NCBI GenBank assembly: GCA_034190085.1
Contig: JAXHTS010000042.1
Span: 1 to 47,977 of the forward strand
Reading direction: 5' to 3'
Length of the DNA stretch: 47,977 nt
Origin: Spirochaetota bacterium
GTDB taxonomy: Bacteria > Spirochaetota > UBA4802 > JAFGDQ01
In this document: in pieces, positions 977 to 38,857 of the stretch
Numbering within the stretch: the stretch's first letter is position 1
Layout: each line of letters begins with the position of its first letter
Notes under the pieces: generated by a model
Seen by the model: the letters and a program-made list of their open reading frames with translations, nothing else
What the model was told of the DNA's origin: nothing
The model's database searches: none
Program-made: the position numbers and the translations under genes

Positions 977-1570
977 CTAAAATATATCATTACAGAACCT
1001 CAAAAATTCGCAATTTCTGCATTTCCCTTTGTGTTTAGTCGGCTCAGGGAGTCTTTCATAGTAAATATATTCTCTGATCTTGTCAACAATTCCCCTGATA
1101 GATTCTATCTGTTCAGGCTCAAGATCAATTTTATAGAGATGCTTTTTCCCGATATTAAAGATAAATCCATGATCCCCCAGATTATATTGATTCGCCTTGA
1201 GCAGAAATGCATAGGACACAAGCTGGCCTATGTGATTTATTGACGGCCTTCCGGGTATGTTTTTAAACTCAACAGGATAGACGCTCTCATTTTCATCATA
1301 GAGAAGCATGTCGAGTCTGCCGGAAAGGGAGCTTGCGCTGTCCATTAAAATCACTGCCTGTGACTTGCGCAGATTCAGTATGCCGTATTTTCTGCCCTTG
1401 TTTCGATCCTCAAGCGCGGTCTGCAGCTCGTGAAGATGCTTCCCATACTCCATTGACGCGGTCTTATAGATGCCTTTGCCGCCGTAGTAATGATAGAAGG
1501 GTATTCTCTCACAATAATTCCAGTTCTTAATATCTGTGGGCCTAATCCATATTTTGTCGTCATCAATCAT
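977..1570 (-). CDS. cas4: CRISPR-associated exonuclease Cas4
   Basis: Cas4 is a PD-(D/E)XK nuclease with an iron-sulfur cluster that trims prespacers and selects PAM-bearing DNA for Cas1-Cas2. The 197-residue protein has the single N-terminal cysteine (C20 in the WNYCER context) and the C-terminal trio C184, C187 and C193 that together hold a 4Fe-4S cluster. Nuclease residues are visible as D87 in GRLDML and E101/K103 in PVEFKN. Its ATG overlaps the cas2 stop by 4 bp, so the two are translationally coupled. It is the last gene of the adaptation module and stops about 100 bp before the array. Length is normal for the family. In most I-B loci cas4 precedes cas1, whereas here the order is cas1-cas2-cas4. 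Confidence 0.95.
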   Translation of the reverse strand: MIDDDKIWIRPTDIKNWNYCERIPFYHYYGGKGIYKTASMEYGKHLHELQTALEDRNKGRKYGILNLRKSQAVILMDSASSLSGRLDMLLYDENESVYPVEFKNIPGRPSINHIGQLVSYAFLLKANQYNLGDHGFIFNIGKKHLYKIDLEPEQIESIRGIVDKIREYIYYERLPEPTKHKGKCRNCEFLRFCNDIF

Positions 1571-1872
1571 AAGAATTTTATCATAGGTGTCTGAGTAATA
1601 CCCAGGGCATTGCCCTTTGATACAATTTTTTTCAACTGATTCTTCTCAAGGGGGATAAAAATAAAATTTCCCTCTTCTTTGCCGATTATTGTTTTTATTC
1701 TATGAAGGAGTTCCTTCTTTTTTGTGGAATCGAGAAAGCCGAAAAAGGCGCTGAACTGTACAGAAAGGAGTCCAAAATCCTCGCAGGCCTCAAAGACCTT
1801 TTTCCTGATCTTATTTGATGTTATGTCATAGATGACAAAGAGGGGTCTTTCATATCTGTTCTGTCTCACCAT
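1567..1872 (-). CDS. cas2: CRISPR-associated endoribonuclease-fold protein Cas2
   Basis: Cas2 is the small ferredoxin-fold dimer that bridges two Cas1 dimers in the spacer-integration complex. The 101-residue product contains the family's opening beta strand and conserved aspartate (FVIYDI, about residues 12-17), followed by the usual helix and a KKKELLHRIKTII segment. It overlaps cas1 by 7 bp at its start and cas4 by 4 bp at its end, so cas1-cas2-cas4 form one transcript. The N-terminal extension of about ten residues before the first strand is slightly longer than usual but unremarkable. Confidence 0.94.
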   Translation of the reverse strand: MVRQNRYERPLFVIYDITSNKIRKKVFEACEDFGLLSVQFSAFFGFLDSTKKKELLHRIKTIIGKEEGNFIFIPLEKNQLKKIVSKGNALGITQTPMIKFL

Positions 1873-2891
1873 TTGAATCTGTACCCTGTATATTTTTCAT
1901 CCCCCCGAAGAAATGAGGCGATCCCCCGCGCCTGTTTCTGGATCACTGAATTTAATGAAATCCTCTGACCTTTAAAGTCGACCTCTGATTCAAGGTTTGC
2001 CGTGATCCTGGCAGCGAGGAACTTCCTGCTATTATCATCCAGAAGCCCCTCCTTTACCTTAATTGAATTTTTTGATTTATTGAATATGGAGACAACACCC
2101 CTGTCCACAACGGGCTGTCTGAACTCCTCAATAAAGTCGAGCACAAGAGAGGGTTTGCCGGACCTGTCAGCATGAAGAAATCCGGCATACAGATCAAGGC
2201 CCGCGTTCAACAGAGCTGATGATATTCTTGAATACAATATTCCGTATCCATAATTCAGGGATGAATTGAACGGATCAGTCGCGCCGCGGTGTTCCCTCTT
2301 CCCGAATACTTCGGAACCCAGGATTGCTGAAACGCCCTGCCAATAAGATGAAGCAGCCTCGCCCTCAATTCCCATTATCTGATTTTTAAGATCCTCGATC
2401 TTCTGGCCTTGGAGTCTGCTGATTGATGCCTCAATAGATTTTAATCTATCTGACAGACCGCTGATCGCCTCATACAGCGCTTCATCCGTCTTCTTTATAT
2501 ATTTTCCGAAATACCTGAGAAGGGCGCCCTGATTAAAGATCTTTGTGCCCACAATGGCCTTTGCCAGATCAACAGACCTGGCGTCGTCATATGCCTTAAA
2601 CTGAGACCTGCGCGTTTTAATTGTGCCGGTGAGAAATGGCGAGCTTAATATTCCATAGGGGGCGCCGCTTTTGCTGAGAAAAGATATCTTAATCCCCCTT
2701 TTCATGCACTCTTCAACGAGGTTTGAGGATAAGCTGACCCCCTGAGAGGCAATGGTTATCTCTTCGATCCTGAAGAGCGGAACATAGTCCACAACCTCGC
2801 CTCCATCAGCCCCATCCCCTTTTTTTATTGAAAGCCTTTCGCTCTTTTTGCCGAGGAAGGCGCCAGGTGTTGAGACCACTATATGCTGCAT
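1866..2891 (-). CDS. cas1: CRISPR-associated integrase Cas1
   Basis: Cas1 is the metal-dependent integrase that inserts new spacers at the leader end of the array. The 341-residue length is normal. The catalytic triad is readable: E176 in GIEGEAA, H240 in GFLHAD and D252 in LDFIEEFRQP. A strong ribosome site (GGGGGAGGG just before the ATG) gives this gene its own start signal. That fits the separation of the adaptation genes from the effector operon by about 2.5 kb. No clear promoter is visible in the 230 bp before it, so readthrough from cas3 through the island cannot be excluded. Confidence 0.97.
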   Translation of the reverse strand: MQHIVVSTPGAFLGKKSERLSIKKGDGADGGEVVDYVPLFRIEEITIASQGVSLSSNLVEECMKRGIKISFLSKSGAPYGILSSPFLTGTIKTRRSQFKAYDDARSVDLAKAIVGTKIFNQGALLRYFGKYIKKTDEALYEAISGLSDRLKSIEASISRLQGQKIEDLKNQIMGIEGEAASSYWQGVSAILGSEVFGKREHRGATDPFNSSLNYGYGILYSRISSALLNAGLDLYAGFLHADRSGKPSLVLDFIEEFRQPVVDRGVVSIFNKSKNSIKVKEGLLDDNSRKFLAARITANLESEVDFKGQRISLNSVIQKQARGIASFLRGDEKYTGYRFKW

Positions 2892-3124
2892 TACCCTCCC
2901 CCTTAAGTGGGATTGAACAAAAAATATTGTTTAACAGATTCGTGAAAAAGTAAAGCAAATAATAATATGAAATTTGTCTGAATGGCTTGTTTCCGTATAT
3001 CTCTTGAGCTGGGGAGTGAAATAAGGGGGATGGGGAGGCGTGATGTTTTAATGCAGGCACTCCTGATTAATTTATCTCCATATCGGCTATATTCATTTTT
3101 TGCTGGGATTTGCTCTTCATAAGG
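2892..3124. other. Intergenic, cas1 upstream region
   Basis: No credible gene is seen. The stretch is moderately AT-rich and would have to contain any cas1-cas2-cas4 promoter. I did not find a convincing -35/-10 pair. Confidence 0.4.
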
Positions 3125-3199
3125 GCTGCCCTCGCCCCCAAATGGGGCGCTGCAAGAGGACAGGAATACAGCCCTGCATGAGCGTTAGATGCGTAATTA
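3125..3199 (+). repeat. Direct repeat copy A (about 75 bp)
   Basis: This copy matches 3842-3914 with a few substitutions. Shared blocks are CCCCAAATGGGG (itself a palindrome), GCTGCARGAGGACAG and CAGCCCTGCATGAGCGTTAG followed by ATGCGTAA. The two copies face the same way and enclose about 640 bp with the DUF559 cassette. Their nature is unknown; they look like members of a dispersed non-coding repeat family. Confidence 0.8.
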
Positions 3200-3314
3200 T
3201 GAGGAGGTAACTCCCAACATGAAGCAGTCGCTGCCCAGCTTGAGGTGAAGGCTGTCACCTTGTATTACAGAGCTGTCTCATGCTTTTTTTTGTACCAACA
3301 CTGCCCTTGTTAAA

Positions 3315-3795
3315 AGCCCCCTAAATCCCCCGAAGGGGGACTTTATATGTATTACTCAAATCTTATATTCAATGTTTTTTTTATTTTCTTCAATACAGTC
3401 TCCATATCATTAATAACTTCATTATCAATAAACCTTAAGGTTTTAATACCGATACTCTTCAAAAACTCATCCCTATATTCGTCGTATTCCTCTTTCCCAA
3501 TATGCGCATTGCCGTCTATCTCTATAGCTAACATCTTTTCAAAACAATAAAAATCCAGCACATACCTATATATTGGATGTTGTCTTCTGAATTTAAAACC
3601 ACCTATCTGTTTATTTTTCAGCTTTTGCCAAAGTATCTTCTCAGAGAGCGTCATATTTTTTCTCATATCTCTGGCAAGCAGAGTAACATATTTCGGAGTT
3701 GTAATATCAGCATTCATAATAAACAAATGATCACAACAAATTTAAAACAAACAATAACAGATCTTCAAGTCCCCCTCCGGGGGATTTAGGGGGCT
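3315..3795 (-). mobile_element. DUF559 cassette with 29-bp inverted termini
   Basis: A 481-bp unit starts with AGCCCCCTAAATCCCCC at 3315-3343 and ends with the inverted copy at 3767-3795. The 29-bp arms differ at one base (CGAAGG versus CGGAGG). Each arm also carries its own CCCCC...GGGGG hairpin. The only gene inside is a DUF559 endonuclease reading leftward. I recall CCCCCTAAATCCCCC-type repeats lying beside DUF559 genes in unrelated bacteria, which would suggest a mobile unit. No target-site duplication is evident, and no transposase is present, so mobility is inferred. Confidence 0.55.
3352..3717 (-). CDS. DUF559 (Vsr-like PD-(D/E)XK) endonuclease domain protein
   Basis: DUF559 proteins share the fold of very-short-patch-repair (Vsr) endonucleases, and their biological substrates are mostly unknown. 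The 121 residues from the preferred ATG (a TTG three codons upstream is the longer alternative) show the family pattern. LSEKILWQKLKNKQ near the N-terminus is followed by FKFRRQHPI, an aspartate in YVLDFYC, and the acidic core AIEIDGNAHI. Next come a Tyr/Asp-rich helix and RFIDNEV. The gene fills an inverted-repeat cassette inside the cas locus, between adaptation and effector genes, and is not expected to be part of CRISPR immunity. It may be cargo or a nuclease that moves the cassette. Family assignment is firm; role is not. Confidence 0.85.
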   Translation of the reverse strand: MNADITTPKYVTLLARDMRKNMTLSEKILWQKLKNKQIGGFKFRRQHPIYRYVLDFYCFEKMLAIEIDGNAHIGKEEYDEYRDEFLKSIGIKTLRFIDNEVINDMETVLKKIKKTLNIRFE

Positions 3796-3841
3796 ATTTT
3801 TAAGCATAGTTATAATTTTTGAGCAAATAATTAGCATGAGG

Positions 3842-3914
3842 TAGCCCTTCCCCAAATGGGGTGCTGCAGGAGGACAGAGTTTCAGCCCTGCATGAGCGTT
3901 AGATGCGTAACTAT
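3842..3914 (+). repeat. Direct repeat copy B (about 73 bp)
   Basis: This is the second copy of the repeat at 3125-3199, in the same orientation, with a one-base shorter C tract and scattered substitutions. It is followed 12 bp later by the 21-bp tandem array. Recombination between copies A and B would delete the DUF559 cassette. Confidence 0.8.
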
Positions 3915-3926
3915 TGGGTTAGATCG

Positions 3927-4110
3927 CCCCACTTTGGGCAAGCTCTGCCCAACTTTGGGCAAGCTCTGCCCTACTTAGGGCAAGCTCTGCCCCACTTGGG
4001 GCAAGCCCTGCCCCACTTAGGGCGAACTCTGCCCCACTTGGGGCAAGCCCTGCCCCACTTAGGGCAAGCTCTGCCCAACTTGGGGCGAACTCTGCCCCAC
4101 TTAGGGCGAA
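3927..4110. repeat. 21-bp tandem repeat array, about 8.7 units
   Basis: Units start at 3927, 3948, 3969, 3990, 4011, 4032, 4053 and 4074, with a partial one at 4095. The consensus is close to CCCCACTTAGGGCAAGCTCT plus G. Each unit contains GCCC...GGGC and can form a small hairpin. The 21-bp period keeps one frame open, giving a heptapeptide pattern LGQALPH. No ribosome site or normal protein end supports translation, and I treat it as non-coding. A GGGGCAAGCTCTGC relative occurs alone near 41076. Confidence 0.88.
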
Positions 4111-4169
4111 GGGAACGAAACCCTGGGCAAGCCCCTCGCAGCCCTCAATTTATGAATATGCGGATGTCT

Positions 4170-4511
4170 TTATGATTCCGAGGCTTTTGCGCTCCTTCGC
4201 CCCGTTTTCCACGGCTTTATGCCAAAATCCTCCAGCTTCTCAGACTTCTTGCCGTATTGTCCGTAAATTGCGCTTGTTATCCGGGATGTCTTCTCCTTTA
4301 GCCCCTTCATAATCTTATTGAGCCTCTCCGTTGACTGCTGTGTCTCAGCCTTCAGCTCCTCCTGTCGCCTGTCCTCAGCAAGAGCGTCTGACACAAGTTG
4401 CTCAAAATCAGCGATTGATATAGGCAGAGAAAGCTCGCTCTCGTTCTTTCTCATGCCGGCTATCATCAACTGAATACTATTGATCTCCTCTGCAAATGAT
4501 CTTTTAGCCAT
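4170..4511 (-). CDS. Small conserved-looking hypothetical protein, basic C-terminus
   Basis: I cannot assign a function. The 113-residue protein is rich in Lys, Glu and Ser and probably helical: a central segment (about residues 30-85) of Glu/Lys/Gln-rich heptads is consistent with a coiled coil. It ends in a basic tail with the pattern YGKKSEKLEDFGIKPWK. Small proteins ending in a KSEKLxEFGIKP-like motif recur in bacterial genomes, often next to repeats, but no role is known to me. The start is well supported by a GGAGGTGA Shine-Dalgarno seven bases before the ATG. It lies alone between the tandem array and a degenerate repeat region. Confidence 0.7.
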   Translation of the reverse strand: MAKRSFAEEINSIQLMIAGMRKNESELSLPISIADFEQLVSDALAEDRRQEELKAETQQSTERLNKIMKGLKEKTSRITSAIYGQYGKKSEKLEDFGIKPWKTGRRSAKASES

Positions 4512-4722
4512 CTAAATCACCTCCATTGTTATTTGGGGAAATTTGATGCCGCCGCCTCCCCCGCATAAAGCGATCTGCCATAAAGCGGAAAGGATTGGGC
4601 ATACAAAAAAATCTTGAGATTCTATAACAATGTGTGGTTTATGTCAACTCCTATATTTGCCGGGTATCTAATAATGGATGGCAGCAAATTAAATGGGTAG
4701 GTTACACTATTTTGTACTTGTC

Positions 4723-4754
4723 ATTCCGGTTGAAACGAATTGGAATACCGGAAT
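4723..4754. repeat. Degenerate palindromic ATTCCGGT/ACCGGAAT repeat
   Basis: Eight-base arms ATTCCGGT and ACCGGAAT surround a 16-base spacer within a gene-free stretch (4512-4917). The TCATTCCGG context resembles widespread dispersed bacterial repeats. Nothing else recognisable is seen in this interval apart from the degraded sequence AATGAGAGATTCCCGCC near 4790. Confidence 0.5.
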
Positions 4755-4977
4755 CTCTGCATTTAAAGAAAGATCTTCATTATTTTAGGATAATGAGAGA
4801 TTCCCGCCTCTATAGGAATAACATAGAATAGAAAGTTACATACTAAATTATACTACTACCTAATGGATGCTGTTACGCGAAGGCGACAGGATGATATCTT
4901 TGTCAGGCAGGTTGGTCTCACTCCCATATACATAGGACACCCGTTGGCACGGCTCCGCTCATCATGACTCGTCTCCG

Positions 4978-5007
4978 TGTAGGGGCGATTGGCCAATCGC
5001 CCCTACA
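4978..5007. repeat. 30-bp perfect palindrome
   Basis: TGTAGGGGCGATTGG is followed directly by its exact reverse complement. The right half recurs at 1-17. In both places a CTCCG-containing spacer and a CRISPR-repeat-like TCTTCATAGGGA follow about 20 bases downstream. This is a dispersed palindromic element, perhaps a REP or miniature element. Confidence 0.9.
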
Positions 5008-5012
5008 GCTGC

Positions 5013-5035
5013 TCCGGTTCTCCTCTTCATAGGGA
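5013..5035. repeat. Orphan fragment of the CRISPR repeat
   Basis: The 23 bases here match the first-repeat junction at the start of the window in 21 positions, including CCTCTTCATAGGGA, the core hairpin of the array repeat. The fragment sits beside a full copy of the palindrome whose half flanks the array, 4 kb from the array itself. Both sites therefore share a composite palindrome-plus-repeat unit. Confidence 0.65.
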
Positions 5036-5233
5036 TAAAAATGCTGCTTCATAGTGTTGATCTTATAGCAGTTTGCCATTTCTGAAACCCCTGTGAGTCT
5101 AAATCCCATTTCCTTGGCGGTTGTTATTGAGTTATTTATCCTGGTCTGAATTGCCTGTTCAATATTCATCCCTTTAACTTCTCTACAGGCTTCCTCTTTT
5201 AAATCCCATACCTCCAACAATGATTTGGGTATA

Positions 5234-5434
5234 TTAGTCCTCTTCATACAAAACCTCCACTGGGGTAATCATTTTCAACTCCTTTGAATAGCCCTCTGCT
5301 ATATTTACAGACGCGACAGCCATCCCCTTTTTATAATTTGCAGGATGTTTGTAATACCAGCTCAAAAGTATATCAATATCGAAGATTGTGCTGATGGCAA
5401 TATTTGTCGAAGTTTCGTCTTCATGAATATTCTG
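5234..5434 (-). pseudogene. N-terminally truncated hypothetical gene after cas3
   Basis: A 66-codon open frame runs from an in-frame TGA at 5435-5437 to a TAA, without a usable start codon in its first half. The translation includes STIFDIDILLSWYYKHPANY and then MAVASVNIAEGYSKELKMI. This has the composition of a real protein and overlaps the next ORF by 14 bp. It probably is the 3' end of a small gene whose 5' part was lost next to the cas3 stop. Family and function are not recognised. Confidence 0.45.
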
Positions 5435-5453
5435 TCAGCCGTTAGTAAAATCA

Positions 5454-7682
5454 TTACAACTCAAGACCTACCTCCGAATATGGCAGCTTTGCTATGTGCA
5501 TTTTTTTGTCAGAATTATAAATAATCTTGCCTTCATTTTTATAATGAATAAATTTATTCTTTGAGATCGATACCTCAAACCTTCTCAGATCGAAGTAGCT
5601 CTTATCCGCATCAAAAAAATTTTCAGAGATAACAACCGTGGAATCGAACAATTCTTCCCATTGTTCATTGAGCTTGTTGTTGAGTTCGTAATCCTTTAAT
5701 CCATAGGGGGCCAGATTGTCGGTCACATATTGAGTCAAATCATTTATCCTGTTGTCCAATGTTTCATTCAACCGCCGTTTCAGCTCTGCGGGATAGGTTT
5801 TATCCAGCAATTCCTGATTGTCAAGCTCTGATATTACTTTCCCGTTTGTCTGATCAAGGATCTCTTTCACCTGAAGGATATGGTCTTTTTTATAGGGCAG
5901 ATATTTATTCTTTTTGCCGTCACCAAAGCAGAAGCTGGCAAAGACATTCACATTCTCAGGCGCTCTTAACATATAACGGTTTATCCTGCCGAATCTCTGC
6001 AGAAGAGACTCAAACGGGGCGATCTCCGTGAATAGCTCATTATAATCGATATCTAAAGATACCTCCACCACCTGGGTCGCTATCAGAATCTTGCCCTTCT
6101 CAGGTTTAAGCCTCTTTTCGATCTCATTCCTATCCTTCTGGTGGAATCTGGAATGCAGAAGGATTGAGTTTTTGTTGAATTTTTTAATCAGATTGAACAG
6201 GCCGACGGCTCTGTCAACCTGGTTCACAACAACAAGGATAGAGCCCCCTTTTGATCTTTCTATTATTTCCTCTATAATTCTCGGATCATCGATTGACGTA
6301 TTTCTCAAAATAAGCCTGTGCCTCTTTTTCTCTGCCAGCCAGTCCGTCGTGGGATAGATTATATTTTCATCGACAATGCTGAAATGCTTTATCAATATGT
6401 CCTTTAGATGAGTCGGCAGGGTGGCGCTCATAAATAATATGGACGCGTTCAGCCATTCGGAAAAGTATTTTGCGGATGCGAGTGTCAGAGATGTGACGTC
6501 AATGTCATAGGCATGTATCTCATCAAAGATGATCTGTGATTCTATCATGGAAACTAATCCGGCCTCATAGCCGTTCTGCGCAAAAAATATTTTTATCAAC
6601 TGGAAAGGGGAGCATATCTTTAACGGAGAAACATTCATCCTTGCCAGGTTATCAGCCGCCTTGGCTGTCTCAAAACTGTCGCTAATTCCGCTCTCTGAAA
6701 GCGTTTCAAAAGCCCTGAGAAAACTTGATGAATGAACAAGGGCGCAGTATTCATCGCCAAGCTTTTCGCAAAGCCTGTCGCTCATAGCGTTCATACTCGC
6801 CCGATACGGCAGTATGAAAAATGATCTCCCCTTCGTTTTCATAATTTCTCTTTGATTCGACGCCCACAGGAGAGCGGCCTCTGTTTTGCCGGAACCGGTG
6901 GGCGCGATAAATAATGAGCTGCCCTCTGATCTGCCCGCCCTCTCCTGAAAAGGATAAGCTGATATTAAATCGTTGAACAGTCTGCCCTTCATCTCTTTAT
7001 AGCCTGATATGCCGGCCTCCAGTCTCCTGAAACCTGGGCCCGCGCTTGCCAGATGATCGGAGGATGTCGCCAGCCCTTTTAGGATAAAGCCTTTAATAAC
7101 CGCGTCTCTGTTTATCTCATCCTTCCGCCCGCGGCCTCTCTGATGAATAAAACCGTTCATTGTTTTTTTAGCTTCCCTTAACAGAGTGTCAGCGGAAGCA
7201 AGAAAATCCTCTTTACTTATGTCAGCAAAGGCATCTATTTCCCTTAAAGCCGGCTGAAGAAGGTCGTACAGCTCATCAAACCTCTCGATTCCTGAATTGA
7301 AATATCTCTCTTTTAATTCGCCTCTATGGCCGTAATAGTTCTTATGATGAGTAAGAACAGCCATAAGCGTATCAGCGTTGTAATCTTCCGGGCGCAGGCA
7401 TATATACAAAAGGGCGCTTATCACCTCGTGCCTCTCCCCGCATAGCTTTCCGCCCTTAAGCATATTCTGAAAGTCCGGGAATATTTTACCAAGATCATGG
7501 TATCTGGCAGCCTCCAGCAAGGCATCGCTTAGATCTATGCTTAATAAACGCTCAATGCTGTCATGGTAGATTGAGAGGTATTCGCGCATCTGACACATAA
7601 CAGAATCTGTATGGGCCTTGAGCGTGATTCCGTCAGACTTTGCAAGATAGCCTTCCATAAAATTCATACTATATTCTTCCAT
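5454..7682 (-). CDS. cas3: CRISPR-associated HD nuclease/helicase Cas3
   Basis: Cas3 is recruited by the crRNA-guided Cascade complex and unwinds and degrades the displaced DNA strand. The 742-residue product fuses an N-terminal HD nuclease (H24; H62-D63 in YHDLGK; H85; H112-H113) to a superfamily 2 helicase. The helicase shows Walker A PTGSGKT (261-267), Walker B DEIH (387-390), motif III SATLP (419-423), and a C-terminal ATQVVEVSLDID and LLQRFGRINR pair. All key residues are intact and the length is normal for a fused Cas3. The start overlaps cas5 by 19 bp. It is the last gene of the effector operon and is followed by gene remnants rather than by cas1. Confidence 0.97.
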   Translation of the reverse strand: MEEYSMNFMEGYLAKSDGITLKAHTDSVMCQMREYLSIYHDSIERLLSIDLSDALLEAARYHDLGKIFPDFQNMLKGGKLCGERHEVISALLYICLRPEDYNADTLMAVLTHHKNYYGHRGELKERYFNSGIERFDELYDLLQPALREIDAFADISKEDFLASADTLLREAKKTMNGFIHQRGRGRKDEINRDAVIKGFILKGLATSSDHLASAGPGFRRLEAGISGYKEMKGRLFNDLISAYPFQERAGRSEGSSLFIAPTGSGKTEAALLWASNQREIMKTKGRSFFILPYRASMNAMSDRLCEKLGDEYCALVHSSSFLRAFETLSESGISDSFETAKAADNLARMNVSPLKICSPFQLIKIFFAQNGYEAGLVSMIESQIIFDEIHAYDIDVTSLTLASAKYFSEWLNASILFMSATLPTHLKDILIKHFSIVDENIIYPTTDWLAEKKRHRLILRNTSIDDPRIIEEIIERSKGGSILVVVNQVDRAVGLFNLIKKFNKNSILLHSRFHQKDRNEIEKRLKPEKGKILIATQVVEVSLDIDYNELFTEIAPFESLLQRFGRINRYMLRAPENVNVFASFCFGDGKKNKYLPYKKDHILQVKEILDQTNGKVISELDNQELLDKTYPAELKRRLNETLDNRINDLTQYVTDNLAPYGLKDYELNNKLNEQWEELFDSTVVISENFFDADKSYFDLRRFEVSISKNKFIHYKNEGKIIYNSDKKMHIAKLPYSEVGLEL

Positions 7683-8467
7683 AATTCCATGCCCTTTAAC
7701 TTATGAAAGACCAGGCCTCGATAGAAGGACGCGCTCTTATATCTTCTGCAATATCTTCGATCTTCCCAAATATCTCTATCCCAGATATCGTCTTTTTTAT
7801 GGTTGATAAAGTTCAGGGAGCCGTTCTTTTTTGAAAAAAAAACGGCATCGTTCTTAAGCTGAAGATAGCGCTCTAAATATGGGGTTCTTTTCTGCAGATA
7901 ATCGAGATACTCAGGCATCATTACCGCTTTACCCGAAGTGAAATATTTTCTATACTCCCAAGGCAGAAGCGTGTTGTCTAAATGGATCGATTCGGCCCTT
8001 TTTATTGTAATAAAATCAATCTCTGTGCATGAGGCGAGGTCCTGGGATCTGCCTATCACGAAATCGAAGGCAGGTTCTATAAATGACTTTTCAAGTTTAT
8101 CCAACAGCCCTTCCTTCCCTTTAATGTACAGATCCAATATCGGCATAAAAAGGAATTCCCTTTCATAGACATTTATAGAGCCTTCGGTGTTTTTAGGCAT
8201 GTCAGAGAAGCCCTTTAACTTGCCTGTGCTTTTCTTCACCACATGCGTGGTTTCAAGATCAAAGCATTTTGCCTTTGATGTAAAGACATAGGCAAACTCA
8301 ATATCCTCAGAGTTAAACCAGTCTCCCACGGCGCAGCATATGTTCCCATAAATAGTGGCGGGCGGAGGCATATCAAAGGTGGGCAGTTTTGTTATCATTA
8401 TGTTGGGATATCGAAAGGATGTGGTAATCGCTTCAATTCTTATTGATAAGACCCTTAACTCATCCAT
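7664..8467 (-). CDS. cas5: Type I-B Cascade subunit Cas5
   Basis: Cas5 is the RAMP protein that caps the 5' handle of the crRNA in Cascade. The 267 residues begin with the typical Cas5 opening strand (LRVLSIRIEAITTSFRYP) and the PPPATIYGNICCAVGDW helix that characterises Cas5 of I-B (Cst) systems. The start lies inside the end of cas7 (13-bp overlap), and the stop lies inside cas3, so translation of cas7-cas5-cas3 is coupled. No unusual feature. Confidence 0.92.
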   Translation of the reverse strand: MDELRVLSIRIEAITTSFRYPNIMITKLPTFDMPPPATIYGNICCAVGDWFNSEDIEFAYVFTSKAKCFDLETTHVVKKSTGKLKGFSDMPKNTEGSINVYEREFLFMPILDLYIKGKEGLLDKLEKSFIEPAFDFVIGRSQDLASCTEIDFITIKRAESIHLDNTLLPWEYRKYFTSGKAVMMPEYLDYLQKRTPYLERYLQLKNDAVFFSKKNGSLNFINHKKDDIWDRDIWEDRRYCRRYKSASFYRGLVFHKLKGMELWKNIV

Positions 8468-9507
8468 TCCGGATTTTCCTTTAAATCCTTATTTAGCTCA
8501 TTTATCACAGTTACAGGATGATCAAATATAAAATCTATCCCTGATCCCTTCTTTATCTCTTTAAGACAATTTTCAAGGCCGTCCCTCTGTTCATCCAGAT
8601 ATCCCTTTGTAAGCCCCACGTACAATCTGCTTTGTAGCGATTCCTTGAATACTGAAATCGATTCCCTGATGGCATCCAAATTTATATGCGGCCGATTCTT
8701 TGAGTCTGGGCCTGCTATAGTGGGGAAGAAATGATTACCTCCCCTTCCAACAGCAACAAAAAGAAATCTTGGAGCGATGTCCGTGTAGTGAATTGAGCCC
8801 TTGGCTCCGCCGCTTAGATTTGCAAAGGCATCCAAAAACATGCCGACGCGCTCTACACGCTCGTCAAGAGGAAGCTCATATGCGGTGCTGTTATCGTATT
8901 CTTTCAGCTTTTTCTTCTTTGCAAGATCAATCCTTACTGAATCGAGATGTTTATATCCGGTTCGGCTTATATGGTAGAACCTGCCGCACATTTTAAGATC
9001 AATTGACATCATGCCAAGCATTGACGCTCTGTAAAACTCATGCGCAAAGGGTACTGGATCGCCCTCATGCCTTGCCATAACGCCAAAATCGTCCACGATT
9101 GCGGCTGGCCCTACAGAAACTACTGTTGACACCTTTACCGGAGAATTGCGTGTTAGGGTGACATCCTTCTCCAATGGAGTCAAATCGCTCTCAGCAACAT
9201 TCTTTTTTGAAGGGGCTCTCATATATCCAAAGAGATCGTCCTCCGCATATTCAATGGGATTAGCGTCTGTGTATGCGATTTTTGTTTCTCTAAAAATCGG
9301 ACTCGCTTTCCAATCGCGGTTATCCTTTAATCTCTCTCTGATATAATATCTTATTGCCTGCGCTGAGATATAAGCAAACTTCCCCTCCCTTGTTTGGATC
9401 TTTTTCACAGCAACGGCATTCTCATAATTTGATTCGGTATTTTCACCAGCGTTGTTCACTGCTGACGCCGGACAATCGATCAGATACAAACCCTTAATAA
9501 ATGACAT
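8455..9507 (-). CDS. cas7: Type I-B Cascade backbone subunit Cas7 (Cst2/DevR family)
   Basis: Cas7 polymerises along the crRNA spacer and forms the Cascade backbone. The 350-residue protein starts with the family signature FIKGLYLIDCPASAVNNA and has EGKFAYISAQAIRYYIRERL soon after (about residues 42-61), as in Cst2-type Cas7. The start is supported by an AAGGAGG Shine-Dalgarno six bases before the ATG. The gene follows cas8 after 10 bp. Confidence 0.93.
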   Translation of the reverse strand: MSFIKGLYLIDCPASAVNNAGENTESNYENAVAVKKIQTREGKFAYISAQAIRYYIRERLKDNRDWKASPIFRETKIAYTDANPIEYAEDDLFGYMRAPSKKNVAESDLTPLEKDVTLTRNSPVKVSTVVSVGPAAIVDDFGVMARHEGDPVPFAHEFYRASMLGMMSIDLKMCGRFYHISRTGYKHLDSVRIDLAKKKKLKEYDNSTAYELPLDERVERVGMFLDAFANLSGGAKGSIHYTDIAPRFLFVAVGRGGNHFFPTIAGPDSKNRPHINLDAIRESISVFKESLQSRLYVGLTKGYLDEQRDGLENCLKEIKKGSGIDFIFDHPVTVINELNKDLKENPEWMS

Positions 9508-9517
9508 AATTGCCTCC

Positions 9518-10900
9518 TTAATCTACGTTGTTCTCTTCTTCTTCAATATCTTCCAGAAGATCTTTATTCTGCTTCCCTATTAGCTCAAACATTCGAATAA
9601 GCATCAGATCTTTTAAGAGATAGGCGTCCCTAAGTGTCCCATCCTCCTCGTCCACTATACCGAGCATTTTAAATATTCTGTCTGAACTGTAGGGTTCTGC
9701 CCTGTTAGACAGCTTTCTTTGAACCCTCATAATATAATTCACAAATCTATTAGGAGAAAGCCTCGCTCCAAAAAGATCATGGATCAATCTCTTTTCGTTT
9801 CCTTCAATTATCAGCTTGGAAACAAAAAGGTCTGTAAATTCTTTTAATATCTCCAGTCTCTCATTATCCATATTGCATACCTCTGTAAGAAATTTTTTAC
9901 ATAGCTCGTAATTATTTTTATAGAGATTATCTCTGTTGTTTTTGTGCCTTCCTAAGAAATAGAATTTAGAAACAACCTCCCGCGCTTCCCAGACCCAGTT
10001 TCCATCCTGAAAGCATTTGCCAAGATATTCATAATAGCCGTTTTTTGTAGAAACCCCATCTTCCGCTTTTTTATCTTCCCTCCAGTTCGTCTTTATTATA
10101 AATTGATGCCTTTCTCTTATCTCTTTTTTGTTTTGCAGGCTGTGCCAGAATTTTAGGAACCTTTCAGGGATATAATACTCAACATAATCCGGCCCCTGTC
10201 CGCTGTTTGAGAAATGTATCGCGTAGATATCCTTTATTGATAGGCTTCGCTCCTTCTTGAATTCGTCAAAATCATCTATTATAATCTTCATTCTTTCGAA
10301 CATTCTTGTTATTACGTTACTTTTATTGGGGTATTTGTCATCCCTATTAGTATTTAAGATATGCTTATTCTGATTAAAGTTGTCCTTTGTCAGAGAATAA
10401 TTCCAGTCTGGATCCGGGCATGTCCAGAAGAATGGCTGACCCCCGATCTTGGTTGTTCCCAAAGGGAAGGCCTGCACTGTAAAGAGGCATTCCCCGCATA
10501 TAGGAATGCCCGAACTCCCTTCCGGCGAGTAAATAAAAATATCTTCTCCAGCCATCATTGGATAATACATCCTATTCAACTCGAACACAGCGTCCCTGCT
10601 GCAGGAGTTGCATCTCCTTATGGGCTGCAGGGGAGGAGCATTTATCTTGTCAAAGAGAGGCCCGGCTTCTTCTACCCTTTTTTCAGGTTTTCCGGCATAA
10701 GCAGGCTGACACCATGCACAATTATTTGTAAATATTGTTGAGAGATGACTCTGCATGTCCTTCCGTAAATAGCGCTTGATAATATCCTTTTTGATCTTTT
10801 TTAAATCCTTCTCATCAATCTCATCGCACCTTTTTTCAAGCCATGCCTCCATAACATGAATGCCTGTATCGATTATTGGATTGTTTGTTAAGCTGAACAT
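9518..10900 (-). CDS. cas8b: Type I-B Cascade large subunit Cas8 (Cst1-like)
   Basis: Cas8 is the large subunit that recognises the PAM and recruits Cas3. The 460-residue protein is the right size for the Cas8b1/Cst1 group and holds several CxxC pairs of that group: NCAWC near residue 47, CNSC near 97, and CGEC near 137. These suggest a zinc-binding domain. The rest is poorly conserved, as is usual for Cas8. Assignment rests on position (between cas6 and cas7), length and the cysteine pattern. A GAAGGAGAG ribosome site precedes the ATG. Confidence 0.85.
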   Translation of the reverse strand: MFSLTNNPIIDTGIHVMEAWLEKRCDEIDEKDLKKIKKDIIKRYLRKDMQSHLSTIFTNNCAWCQPAYAGKPEKRVEEAGPLFDKINAPPLQPIRRCNSCSRDAVFELNRMYYPMMAGEDIFIYSPEGSSGIPICGECLFTVQAFPLGTTKIGGQPFFWTCPDPDWNYSLTKDNFNQNKHILNTNRDDKYPNKSNVITRMFERMKIIIDDFDEFKKERSLSIKDIYAIHFSNSGQGPDYVEYYIPERFLKFWHSLQNKKEIRERHQFIIKTNWREDKKAEDGVSTKNGYYEYLGKCFQDGNWVWEAREVVSKFYFLGRHKNNRDNLYKNNYELCKKFLTEVCNMDNERLEILKEFTDLFVSKLIIEGNEKRLIHDLFGARLSPNRFVNYIMRVQRKLSNRAEPYSSDRIFKMLGIVDEEDGTLRDAYLLKDLMLIRMFELIGKQNKDLLEDIEEEENNVD

Positions 10901-10927
10901 AAACTCTCCTTCAAGTATTTATATTAC

Positions 10928-11857
10928 TCAAACCTCCGCCTCATACCATCCGTTCCCAAAGACCGCGGCCTTGCCCACGTGCATGTATTGTCCGAAAAGG
11001 AGGTAGGGCATATATTGGCTGATGGGCCCCTGGTATATCAGGCTTCCCACAAATCCGCTCATGTTCTGTTTAGCGGATGGGTTTCTGGTTCTTCGGTAGG
11101 TCTGCATATATGCCACATCAGCCCTTACGGTTTTAACCTTTTCAGCCTCCACAGTAAAATTTTTAAAATCTATATCCGGTTCAATGCCTTCATAAAACCA
11201 TGAGAGGGCTGAGAATCTGTCCCTTATCCTTTTGATAAGGGTGTCAAAGGCGGGAGTCTGGATAAATTTGCCCCTGTCCTTTATGACTGCCGGGGTTTTG
11301 AAGTTTAATCTAACCCGATCAACATCCATTGTCTTAAAATCATTCTCGGTAAAGAATATATCCCTGGGATAAACCATGTCGTTCTCTGATGAGAAGAGTT
11401 CATGCACATTTCCGGTAACGGGATTCTTCTGGTGAATCCTTTCAAGGTATGCCCTTCCCCTGTTTTTCCCAAGTCCATTCTGGGCAGCGCTTTTCAGAGT
11501 GATCAGGATGTAAGGCAAAAAGTCAATTGCCCTGCCGAAGATCACCATCTCATATTTTATCAGTTCATCTTTTAAATAAAGGGTTTTTCTTTCCAGTGGG
11601 GGTTTTATGACATAGGGCCTTGGGATGTTTTCGTTTCTGGACAGCTTCCTGATATTTGGGTCAGGCATTGAGTTGAAGAATTTTCTGTACACGCAGTCCG
11701 GGATGCTGCATTTACTACAATCTGCTTCAGGGAAAAGACAGACCATGCCTCTGAGGCTAGTTCCAAAGGCGCCCCGCAGAACATTGCCCTTGTTGCGTTC
11801 CGGCAGGACTATATTTTCCCCTGCTCTCAAATTTATTTCAAACAGATAGGCGCGCAT
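10928..11857 (-). CDS. cas6: CRISPR pre-crRNA endoribonuclease Cas6
   Basis: Cas6 cleaves the repeat in the long crRNA precursor and here would release guides with an ACUGAAAC 5' handle. The 309-residue protein belongs to the Cas6 variant with an early NVLRGAFGTSLR motif (about residues 25-36) and a small cysteine cluster, CSKCSIPDC. At the end it has the glycine-rich AVFGNGWYEAEV that forms the RNA-contacting loop. It is the first gene of the effector operon. No good ribosome site precedes the ATG, so it may be weakly or leaderlessly translated. Confidence 0.9.
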   Translation of the reverse strand: MRAYLFEINLRAGENIVLPERNKGNVLRGAFGTSLRGMVCLFPEADCSKCSIPDCVYRKFFNSMPDPNIRKLSRNENIPRPYVIKPPLERKTLYLKDELIKYEMVIFGRAIDFLPYILITLKSAAQNGLGKNRGRAYLERIHQKNPVTGNVHELFSSENDMVYPRDIFFTENDFKTMDVDRVRLNFKTPAVIKDRGKFIQTPAFDTLIKRIRDRFSALSWFYEGIEPDIDFKNFTVEAEKVKTVRADVAYMQTYRRTRNPSAKQNMSGFVGSLIYQGPISQYMPYLLFGQYMHVGKAAVFGNGWYEAEV

Positions 11858-23704: not shown

Positions 23705-25276
23705 TCATAATCTCGCATCAATCATCTCATCCTCGCCATTTCTTTTTTTCAGATACTCAAGTTTGTTAAGGGCATCAACAAAGGAAAGAATTCCGGCAAC
23801 AGTTATATCGATATTCACGCTATTGCCGAAGACCCTTAATTGCCTCTTTTCAAATTCTTCTACCACTGTAACCGATACCTCACAGAGGGCATCGGATCCG
23901 CCAGTAATTGCCACAAGATTAAAGGATTCAATTCTAGCCTGAGTCCCTGTAATCTTCTTTACGGCGTTTATCCCAGCATCCACCCCTCCATTTCCATGAG
24001 CCACATCATACTTCTCAACGCTTCTGTTATGATTATCCTTAATCGTGACCATTGTCATTGGAGGAGAGAACATGCCTGTGGAAACTTGAACATTATAGAC
24101 CTCATAGCGTCCCTTCTCCTTGTATAAGATCTCTCCAACAAGGACCTCCAGATCATCGTCATAAATTTCTTTCTTTTTGTCAGCCAGATCTTTAAAGTAT
24201 TTAAAAAAAATGGTGATCTCCTCTTCGTTTAAATTGTAGCCCAGGCTATTCAATCTATCAATCACCGCATGCCTTCCAGAGTGCTTGCCCAATACGAGGG
24301 TAGATTTTGATAATCCAACATCCTCAGGCCTCATAATTTCATATGTCACCGCCATTTTTAGCACACCATCCTGATGGATACCTGATTCATGAGCAAAGGC
24401 ATTTGCGCCCACTATTGCTTTATTAGGTTGCACAAAGACACCGGTAATATGCGATAAAAGCTTACTAGTGGACATTATCTGTTTAGTGTCAATATTTGTA
24501 TAGAAATTCAATACATCATTTCTTGTCTTGATAGCCATCACTAATTCCTCAAGCGATGTGTTTCCGGCCCTCTCTCCAATTCCATTAATCGTACACTCCA
24601 CCTGTCTGGCTCCTGCCTGGATGGCCGCAATTGAGTTCGAAACAGCCAAACCAAGGTCATTGTGACAATGAACAGAGATAATAGCCTTGTCTATATTATT
24701 AACATGATCAAAGAGATACCTGATGAGATCGTAAAATTCAGACGGGATAGCATATCCCACCGTATCAGGGATATTGACTACAATTGCTCCTGCGTCAATA
24801 ACCTCCTGTACCATCTCTACAAGATAATCCCTATCGCTTCTGGATGCATCCATTGGCGAGAACTCAACATTATGTGTATAGGATTTGGCCCTTTCAACCG
24901 CTGACACTGCCTCTTTCAAAACGCGATTTCGATCCTTCTTGAATTGATGTGTTATGTGTATATCCGAACTGGATATAAAGGTATGAATCATCGGAGACTC
25001 AGCTTCACTTACTGCATCCCAGGCTACATCAATATCCTGAAAATTCGCTCTCGCAAGACCTGCCACCTGAATTCCCTTTGCCATACGTGCAATCCTTTGA
25101 ACTGCATCAAAATCACCCTTAGAGGATATTGGGAAGCCAGCTTCAATGATGTCAACACCAAGCTTAATAAGCTGATTGGTGAAGTGAAGCTTCTCATCTA
25201 TGTTCATACTAAAACCTGGAGATTGCTCTCCATCCCTTAATGTTGTGTCAAAAATTATTATCTTATTATCCTTCAT
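23705..25276 (-). CDS. leuA: 2-isopropylmalate synthase
   Basis: LeuA condenses acetyl-CoA with 2-oxoisovalerate in the first committed step of leucine synthesis. The protein (about 523 residues) has the catalytic FDTTLRDGEQSPG at the N-terminus, the metal-binding VHCHNDLG and the NGIGERAGNTSLEE motif. Its C-terminal regulatory domain (about residues 400-515) would bind leucine. The preferred ATG has GGAG six bases upstream; the longer frame starts four codons earlier. Citramalate synthase is a less likely alternative. Expression is very likely controlled by the attenuator at 25481-25623. Confidence 0.93.
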   Translation of the reverse strand: MKDNKIIIFDTTLRDGEQSPGFSMNIDEKLHFTNQLIKLGVDIIEAGFPISSKGDFDAVQRIARMAKGIQVAGLARANFQDIDVAWDAVSEAESPMIHTFISSSDIHITHQFKKDRNRVLKEAVSAVERAKSYTHNVEFSPMDASRSDRDYLVEMVQEVIDAGAIVVNIPDTVGYAIPSEFYDLIRYLFDHVNNIDKAIISVHCHNDLGLAVSNSIAAIQAGARQVECTINGIGERAGNTSLEELVMAIKTRNDVLNFYTNIDTKQIMSTSKLLSHITGVFVQPNKAIVGANAFAHESGIHQDGVLKMAVTYEIMRPEDVGLSKSTLVLGKHSGRHAVIDRLNSLGYNLNEEEITIFFKYFKDLADKKKEIYDDDLEVLVGEILYKEKGRYEVYNVQVSTGMFSPPMTMVTIKDNHNRSVEKYDVAHGNGGVDAGINAVKKITGTQARIESFNLVAITGGSDALCEVSVTVVEEFEKRQLRVFGNSVNIDITVAGILSFVDALNKLEYLKKRNGEDEMIDARL

Positions 25277-25424
25277 CCTTCTCTCCATCCTATGATGTAA
25301 ATGCTTAATACCTCCCGGTCTAAAGCCTAATTTCTGGAAAAACTCAGGTTTATGGAGTTTAATTTAGGTCTCCATATACACCTTTGATAACTTTTAATCC
25401 AATTTTGATATAAACTATGTTATA

Positions 25425-25480: not shown

Positions 25481-25517
25481 CGAAAAAGGCCGTCACAGAG
25501 GTATCCGTGACGGCCTT
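25481..25517 (-). terminator. Intrinsic terminator of the leuA attenuator
   Basis: On the minus strand, perfect 11-bp arms AAGGCCGTCAC / GTGACGGCCTT enclose a 10-base loop. The second arm runs straight into a TTTTT tract. It lies about 25 bases after the leader-peptide stop and about 205 bases before leuA. The 5' arm contains TCACGG, complementary to CCGTGA inside the leader-peptide gene, which allows a competing antiterminator pairing. It could also end the upstream lipoprotein transcript. Confidence 0.85.
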
Positions 25518-25542
25518 GAATTTGCCTTATATTAAAATAACA

Positions 25543-25623
25543 TCACGAAACCCTCTTCACGGTTTCTGTGCCCCCTAGCAATAAAGATAGTCGTAGAGTG
25601 ATGTTATTATTCAATGTAGTCAT
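25543..25623 (-). CDS. Leucine-rich leader peptide of the leuA attenuator
   Basis: A 26-codon ORF with six leucine codons (TTG, CTA, CTA, TTA, TTG, CTA), five of them within seven codons (LRLSLLL, residues 10-16). It starts ATG ACT ACA TTG and stops at TGA. AGGGA lies ten bases upstream of the ATG. The RNA can fold into a closing stem AATAACATCAC / GTGATGTTATT (11 bp, perfect) around the leucine codons and an inner hairpin GAAACC/GGTTTC. The terminator at 25481-25517 follows directly. The layout matches classic ribosome-mediated leu attenuation: stalling at scarce Leu-tRNA would free the antiterminator and switch on leuA. The Leu codons are mostly of the CTA/TTA type. Inference, but all parts are visible. 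Confidence 0.8.
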   Translation of the reverse strand: MTTLNNNITLRLSLLLGGTETVKRVS

Positions 25624-25653
25624 TTCTATTTTAATCCCTAAATTGATAAAGAG

Positions 25654-25683
25654 ACAATAAAACTAAATGGTGTATTATGTCAA
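25654..25683 (-). promoter_or_regulatory. leuA promoter
   Basis: A perfect -35 TTGACA (25678-25683) and -10 TATTGT (25654-25659), with an 18-bp spacer. They would start transcription about 25 bases before the leader-peptide ATG. The promoter sits directly downstream of the lipoprotein gene stop. Confidence 0.65.
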
Positions 25684-25713: not shown

Positions 25714-26550
25714 TTAATTGGAGCCTGGGGTGGGCTCTCCGCTCTCCCAGTCTGTACAGGTGCTGTTAATATTGAAATTTATTCGCTGTACTGAATTCCC
25801 CTCGCTTGCTGAAGGTTCTTCATTATATATACACCAATCATCCATATAGCATATATCTCCAACCCCACCCTCAAAACACATAGCGTCATTGATATGATTG
25901 TCCGGTCTCAATAGATAAATAGTCTCACCATCGTTATTTAGAGGAAAAGTGAAGCCTGAATAATCGGGATATAATTCAAAGTAATTGTAAAAGCCATCAT
26001 AGGATTTAGCAATAACTATAAAACTGTTGGAGGGGATCAAGCTATCCAGAGGAAAAGTAAAGGGTGTGCTATCCTCTTTCCCATCAATTATTACAAATCC
26101 TGAGATATCGCAAGCATAGTTATGCCCATTATATATCTCAATAAACTCCCTTTCGCTCTCAGGTGAAGGGGGATCATAGAATACCTCGCTAAGTAATATC
26201 TTTGAAAATTCCTCAACTATGATCTCCTCAGAGGTATCATAATCATCCATAGCAGCATTAATATCAACAGAACCCCTGCTCAGGGCTGTAATAATTCCTG
26301 AATCGCTAATAGAAATAATTTCACTATTGCTGCTGCTCCAGGATACATCCGCATTATATGATATAATTTTTTCTCCAGAGGGAAGCAATATCAACAGCGA
26401 TGCAGTTGCTCGATCGCTGACATATAGGATTCTGGAGGGAAGGAATATCTCAATCCCGCTGTATTGTTTTTCCTCTTTTATCCCTTCTACGTATCTCTCC
26501 GGATATCCGCATGAAAAGAGGATATAGATGAGAAGATATAGAATTATCAC
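25714..26550 (-). CDS. Lipoprotein with Big-2-like and lamin-tail domains
   Basis: A 278-residue surface or periplasmic lipoprotein. A GTG start leads into a short signal peptide ending in the lipobox LFSCG (Cys about residue 14). Residues about 35-110 resemble a bacterial Ig-like (Big-2) domain (VSWSSSNSEIISISDSGIIT). Residues about 115-270 resemble a lamin-tail domain (LLSEVFYDPPSPESEREFIE and then IEIYNGHN), with a CYMDDWCIYNE loop. Lamin-tail domains are typical of secreted nuclease- or adhesin-associated proteins. The ligand is unknown. It lies between the anti-sigma gene and leuA on the same strand. Confidence 0.8.
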   Translation of the reverse strand: MIILYLLIYILFSCGYPERYVEGIKEEKQYSGIEIFLPSRILYVSDRATASLLILLPSGEKIISYNADVSWSSSNSEIISISDSGIITALSRGSVDINAAMDDYDTSEEIIVEEFSKILLSEVFYDPPSPESEREFIEIYNGHNYACDISGFVIIDGKEDSTPFTFPLDSLIPSNSFIVIAKSYDGFYNYFELYPDYSGFTFPLNNDGETIYLLRPDNHINDAMCFEGGVGDICYMDDWCIYNEEPSASEGNSVQRINFNINSTCTDWESGEPTPGSN

Positions 26551-38416: not shown

Positions 38417-38857
38417 TGACCCCTTCGTACAGCCCGACAGCCCCTCCGTACCGTCCGGTGACCCCCTCGTACCGCCCGACATCCCCTCCGTACCGTCCGA
38501 TGACTCCCTCCGTACCGCCCGACATCCCCTCCGTACCGTCCGATGACTCCCTCCGTACAGCCCGACATCCCCTCCGTACCGTCCGATGACTCCCTCCGTA
38601 CCGCCCGACATCCCCTCCGTACCGTCCGATGACTCCCTTCGTACCGTCAGACAAGCCCCTCCGTACCGTCCGACAGCCCCTCCGTACCGTCCGATGACTC
38701 CCTCCGTACCGCCCGACATCCCCTCCGTACCGTCCGGCGACTCCCTTCGTACCGCGCGACAGCCCCTTCGTACCGTCCGATGACTCCCTCCGTACCGTCC
38801 GACAGCCCCTTCGTACTGCCCGACAGCCTCTTCGTACCGTCCGACATCCCCTTCGGA
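38417..38857. repeat. GC-rich 21/22-bp tandem array, about 20 units
   Basis: Units such as ACATCCCCTCCGTACCGTCC (plus G, 21 bp) alternate mostly with ATGACTCCCTCCGTACCGCC (plus CG, 22 bp), a 43-bp dimer. The array is far more GC-rich than its surroundings. Because 43 is not a multiple of three, the three minus-strand frames rotate through the same motifs (GTEG, RYGG, TVRR) and are all open. The resulting ORFs are artefacts. Nature unknown; the 21-bp pitch recalls the array at 3927-4110 though the sequences differ. Confidence 0.88.

Follow-up and report, generated by a model that had tools for sequence, protein, structure and literature searches.

The DNA ahead of leuA in this Spirochaetota contig very probably carries a ribosome-mediated transcription attenuator, which would tie expression of the gene to the level of charged leucyl-tRNA in a phylum other than that of the enterobacteria. 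An initial annotation of the window (the whole 47,977-nt stretch of DNA that was analysed, from a genome assembly of 4.27 Mb in 86 contigs) had proposed such an attenuator from the sequence, and the proposal is now supported by parts conserved at 36 of 36 leuA loci and by three covarying helices. The impression recorded in that annotation that the organism is unlike the enterobacteria also held, as it belongs to the Spirochaetota and encodes FlaA. Members of the FlaA family (periplasmic flagellar sheath, PF04620), which is typical of spirochaetes, were found in 58 of 59 genomes, including that of the window, while the 14 control genomes contained none.

Parts of the leader region and surrounding genes

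When the minus strand is read from position 25714 to 25288, a promoter-like site, a leader ORF with the 1:2 stem, a terminator and a U5 tract follow one another in that order (Table 1). The product of leuA matched two NCBIfam profiles, NF002086 at 728 bits (cut-off 532) and TIGR00973 at 662 bits (cut-off 598.7), and the gene that comes after it is recA. The LeuC proteins of the order matched TIGR00170 only below its cut-off, with no match at E<=1e-50 in the genome of the window, and the isomerase step may therefore depend on a different LeuC subfamily.

Table 1. Coordinates of the leuA leader and adjoining genes in the window
Feature	Position	Strand	Remarks
Gene upstream of leader	25714-26550	-	lamin-tail-domain protein, weak Ig-like (Big_2) match
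Promoter-like TTGACA-N18-TATTGT	25654..25683	-	10/12 consensus matches; TTGACA 25683-25678, TATTGT 25659-25654, spacing 18 nt
Leader ORF, 26 codons, MTTLNNNITLRLSLLLGGTETVKRVS, TGA stop	25543..25623	-	six Leu
Strand 1 (AATAACATCAC), immediately 5' of Leu codons	25598..25608	-	pairs with 25546-25536
Putative control codons, Leu 10, 12, 14, 15, 16 (CTA, CTA, TTA, TTG, CTA)	25576..25596	-	
Strand 2 (AGAGGGTTTCGTGA), antiterminator 5' arm, overlaps leader stop codon	25543..25556	-	12/14 pairs with 25510-25497
1:2 stem, 3' arm (GTGATGTTATT), includes leader stop codon	25536..25546	-	pairs with strand 1
Strand 3 (TCACGGATACCTCT), 3' arm of antiterminator, serving also as 5' arm and loop of terminator	25497..25510	-	partner swap, double changes
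Intrinsic terminator hairpin, 14 pairs including one G-U, loop UACC	25486..25517	-	
Terminator U5 tract; its two leading U are shared with the stem base	25483..25487	-	
leuA, 2-isopropylmalate synthase, predicted regulated gene	23705..25288	-	NCBIfam profile matches

Several parts had been described before and were found where expected, namely the TTGACA ahead of the leader, the 26-codon ORF with five of its six leucine codons within seven positions (codons 10-16), and the 11-bp stem AATAACATCAC/GTGATGTTATT that encloses these codons. The terminator and its TTTTT are also present; the stem, formerly given as 11 bp and perfect, is the longer one listed in Table 1, with its single G-U pair. Promoter-like sites of equal match numbered four in the region against 2.2 expected, which is weak statistically when taken alone, and the -10 hexamer of the site in the window is itself weak, as is the Shine-Dalgarno site of the leader ORF. 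An exact TTGACA is nevertheless found in most relatives, mostly 30-100 nt upstream of the leader start. When the intergenic region was shuffled 2000 times with its dinucleotides preserved, a Leu-rich ORF of such a kind arose in 10 cases. CTA, which provides three of the five clustered codons, accounts for 11% of leucine codons across 19 ORFs of the window. Folding of the 150-nt leader, a check that the initial annotation had suggested, gave -48.6 kcal/mol (z = -5.5), a value equalled by none of 200 shuffled sequences.

Elsewhere in the window, a CRISPR array with 12 copies of the repeat GTTTCAGTTCCCTCTTCATAGGGAAGTCGAATGTTAC at a spacing of 73-76 nt occupies positions 30-900, and minus-strand cas genes for Cas4, Cas1, Cas3, a Cas5-like protein, a Cas7-like protein (DevR/Csa2) and Cas6 lie at 977-11857. 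A 460-amino-acid protein without a match (9518-10900) stands in the large-subunit position of this locus, which looks like a type I system. Near the cas genes, at 3926-4107, there is a 21-nt tandem repeat of 8.7 copies (GCCCCACTTAGGGCAAGCTCT). Another 21-nt tandem repeat, of about 20 copies (CCCCTCCGTACCGTCCGACAC), spans 38420-38852 and is open in two minus-strand frames, giving repetitive GGTEG/GRYGG-like ORFs.

Conservation and covariation across the order

A LeuA search of 59 genomes returned a match in 45, of which 37 belong to the same order as the genome of the window, itself included in the order sample of 46 genomes. Upstream DNA was read for 36 of these 37 leuA genes, the window among them, from six families; the leuA of G033 was left out, as only a fragment away from the gene start was available. 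A Leu-rich leader ORF and a terminator, with the parts in the same order, were present at all 36 loci, and thus no relative was seen to lack either part, a loss that the initial annotation had regarded as evidence against its proposal. Each leader contains 4-9 clustered Leu codons and ends in TGA, the sequence at this stop being GTGATG in 25 of the 36; the last clustered Leu codon lies 18-42 nt ahead of the stop, and the terminator follows 25-33 nt past it. The sequence GCCGTCAC is conserved in the terminator arm, and the motif GCCGTCA was found in 33 of the 36 terminators, with a GCCGCCA/ACCGCCA form in family f6. Leader length, the residues other than leucine and the neighbouring genes all vary among relatives. 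As leucine is kept while all six of its codons are used (CTA 61, CTT 48, CTG 42, CTC 35, TTA 30 and TTG 26 across the 36 leaders), the pattern is a signature of selection on the amino acid that is read and not on the letters of the RNA.

These data bear upon a simpler explanation, in which the hairpin would do no more than terminate the gene ahead of it (25714-26550), the Leu-rich ORF being a chance frame. That gene does share the strand of the hairpin, which lies about 200 nt past its end. However, the upstream gene is homologous at only 5 of 30 loci, the window included (recA was likewise found at 5 of 30), whereas the leader and terminator are present at every one; in addition, the Leu codons are conserved with synonymous change, the antiterminator covaries, and the promoter-like site is located past the end of the upstream gene. 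A chance association of this kind is therefore extremely improbable. Since the neighbours change and the leader and terminator stay, the element was assigned to leuA.

Pairing between the strands was evaluated by a partner-swap test, requiring no alignment, in which the energy of duplexes between strands of one species was set against that of duplexes whose strands had been exchanged between species. For the antiterminator (2:3), own partners gave -20.2 kcal/mol against -14.6 kcal/mol for swapped partners, and none of 20000 swaps was as good. The stem of strands 1 and 2 (own -12.6, swapped -10.5 kcal/mol) and the terminator formed by strands 3 and 4 (own -21.0, swapped -17.4 kcal/mol) were each unequalled in 5000 swaps, so the stem around the Leu codons is not only present in the window but kept by covariation, although it is poor in part of family f5. 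As exchange tests of this type leave some relatedness between sequences, versions with one sequence per genus were run as a safeguard for all three helices, and a version with one sequence per family for 2:3 only; for 2:3, swaps as good as the own partners numbered 0 of 20000 in the genus version and 27 of 20000 in the family version. Pair counts on an alignment of 34 sequences (A1) agreed with these results, with 89% of cells paired and 12 double changes (UA to GC, CG to UA) for 2:3, and 98% and 24, respectively, for 3:4. When the columns were slid by one to three positions as a control, pairing fell to 18-60%.

An antiterminator, as proposed in the initial annotation, is supported, though its strands required revision. 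CCGTGA (25562-25557) can pair with TCACGG in the window, as had been stated, but the relatives conserve another strand, and the antiterminator that they keep is the longer AGAGGGUUUCGUGA/UCACGGAUACCUCU at the leader stop codon. Two further candidates were discarded by the swap test. The proximal hairpin GAAACC/GGTTTC (25566-25561 with 25552-25547), which is present in the fold of the window, had own energies no better than swapped ones, and the same was true of a duplex between the Leu codons and strand 2.

An RNA that senses leucine or tRNA directly, as a riboswitch or T-box with the ORF in a secondary role, is a further alternative, in favour of which speak the strong structure and the conserved GCCGTCAC of the terminator arm. 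The conserved bases are, however, largely explained by pairing in alternative helices, and the sole conserved amino-acid signal is an in-frame run of Leu codons with free codon choice. Furthermore, a search of the whole genome with the T-box model (RF00230) gave no match, and no Rfam family exceeded its threshold, no leucine-leader family being found either at the gathering score or at E<=10. Direct sensing was accordingly considered very unlikely. Similarly small weight was given to a leader that controls translation of leuA or works through Rho in place of an intrinsic terminator, as has been proposed for the actinobacterial LEU and mycobacterial cys leaders. Such an arrangement has precedent in Actinobacteria with Leu- or Cys-rich leader ORFs that have no obvious terminators (PMC1262725). 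All 36 loci examined here, in contrast, have an intrinsic terminator with a T-run, which covaries, and the distance from the end of the terminator to leuA, which lies between about 33 nt and over 300 nt, is too variable for the masking of a fixed ribosome site.

Predicted course of attenuation

Under the favoured reading of ribosome-mediated attenuation, RNA polymerase would start near 25650 and transcribe the leader ORF with a ribosome following behind it. When leucine is plentiful, the ribosome would reach the TGA inside strand 2 and cover that strand, so that strands 3 and 4 could pair and transcription would stop at about 25483. When leucine is short, the ribosome would stall at the Leu codons beside strand 1 and block the 1:2 stem, so that strand 2 would take strand 3 before strand 4 has been made, no terminator would form and leuA would be transcribed. 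Were the leader to go untranslated, the 1:2 stem would form and the terminator would be the default outcome.

The 36 sequences were folded with a mask in place of the ribosome, using the RNA as it would be before strand 4 exists. With the mask at the stop codon, the mean number of 2:3 pairs was 0.0 and the helix formed in 0 of 36 sequences; with the mask at the first Leu codon, the mean rose to 5.9 and the helix formed in 26 of 36; and with no ribosome, the corresponding values were 4.0 and 17 of 36. For the complete transcript, the terminator was the more stable fold and won in nearly every state, and the antiterminator must therefore win by timing, while RNA polymerase is still moving. The window sequence differed in that a mask at the first Leu codon left strand 2 in the local hairpin GAAACC/GGTTTC, and only a mask at the last Leu codon freed it. 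In the window, 2:3 dominates only when the ribosome stands at the final Leu codon, as the local hairpin competes with it, which points either to a weakness of the static model or to a peculiarity of this species.

The median distance from the end of strand 1 to the first clustered Leu codon is 10 nt, which places strand 1 within the footprint of a stalled ribosome, and as modelled the geometry of the control codons fits the classic attenuation scheme. In many relatives strand 1 overlaps the start codon of the leader, for example ATGACATCAC with GTGATGTC. A bolder extension, which should be taken as tentative and rather doubtful, is that the order possesses a leuA attenuator lineage of its own, with an origin independent of the proteobacterial ones and a guarding stem that modifies the classic scheme into a start-stop 'latch'. 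If true, the start-codon region would pair with the stop-codon region, and one helix could both guard the antiterminator and limit initiation on the leader.

Distribution and comparison with known systems

Strands 2-4 were built into a covariance model (R1), which was used to search 393 Spirochaetota genomes, with matches at E below 1e-6 taken as strong. Strong matches were obtained in 37 of the 46 genomes of the order, one per genome and at leuA; none was found outside the order among the 393 genomes, the weak matches elsewhere in the phylum having E values of 4.5e-5 to 0.01. The nine genomes of the order with no R1 match (G004, G009, G011, G013, G022, G025, G028, G044 and G045) are exactly those that have no LeuA match at E<=1e-100, and in family f3 the LeuA match and the leader are both absent from all four genomes. 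Leucine synthesis has likely been lost in the nine, gene and attenuator together, although some of these genomes are incomplete. Ahead of leuA in eight spirochaetes not belonging to the order, no Leu-rich leader was found, with unrelated terminators in some, and the element was found in none of 30 ilvB upstream regions. The genome of the window contains no other copy, the exact terminator pattern occurring once and the covariance model finding one site.

The nearest parallel is the leuA attenuator of gamma-proteobacteria (leuL of E. coli and Salmonella; Shewanella, PMC2659441), with which the spirochaetal element shares a Leu-rich leader peptide, an antiterminator, an intrinsic terminator and the target gene. 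The Shewanella attenuator has the same three stems; a segment of the leader coding sequence and an antiterminator arm together make up its anti-antiterminator (PMC2659441). Unlike these systems, the element belongs to another phylum and shows no sequence match (no Rfam match); its strand 1 precedes the Leu codons on the 5' side and often sits at the start codon of the leader, its stop codon falls within strand 2, and leuA of the window precedes recA and not other leu genes.

A leucine-rich leader ORF followed by a terminator is also found ahead of ilvD in Staphylococcus aureus, where the ORF is rich in Leu and Ile and attenuation of the ilv-leu operon by leucine supply has been proposed (PMC5794164). 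The antiterminator proposed there captures the U-tract (PMC5794164), whereas here the 5' arm of the terminator is captured, and the spirochaetal leaders employ Leu codons only and stand at leuA. The actinobacterial LEU element, too, lies ahead of leuA and includes a leader ORF in which Leu codons form a run; it folds into a pseudoknot, in the base stem of which the Leu codons are paired to the leuA Shine-Dalgarno site, and changed Leu codons did not behave as attenuation predicts (PMC1262725). The element described here differs from it in having an intrinsic terminator, at a variable distance from leuA, and a covarying antiterminator.

Leader-peptide systems were long known only in Proteobacteria and Actinobacteria, to which Firmicutes were added (Naville and Gautheret, 2010; PMC2965389), and strong clues to such attenuation have been described in a flavobacterium (PMC9723704). 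No report of a leader-peptide attenuator in spirochaetes was found in the openly accessible literature; as the subscription literature, for example the 2010 comparative survey cited in PMC4833913, lay outside this search, priority is not claimed. The kind of element is a textbook one, and the point of interest is the phylum together with the depth of comparative support. A covarying case that spans an order of Spirochaetota extends the known range of leader-peptide attenuation and is consistent with its repeated independent origin, and the 36 leaders form a good comparative set for the co-evolution of stalled ribosomes and RNA switches. The case also illustrates that sequence alone can expose regulation in lineages that have no laboratory genetics. 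Judged from its parts, the element appears to work like the trp, his and leu attenuators, yet it belongs to no Rfam family.
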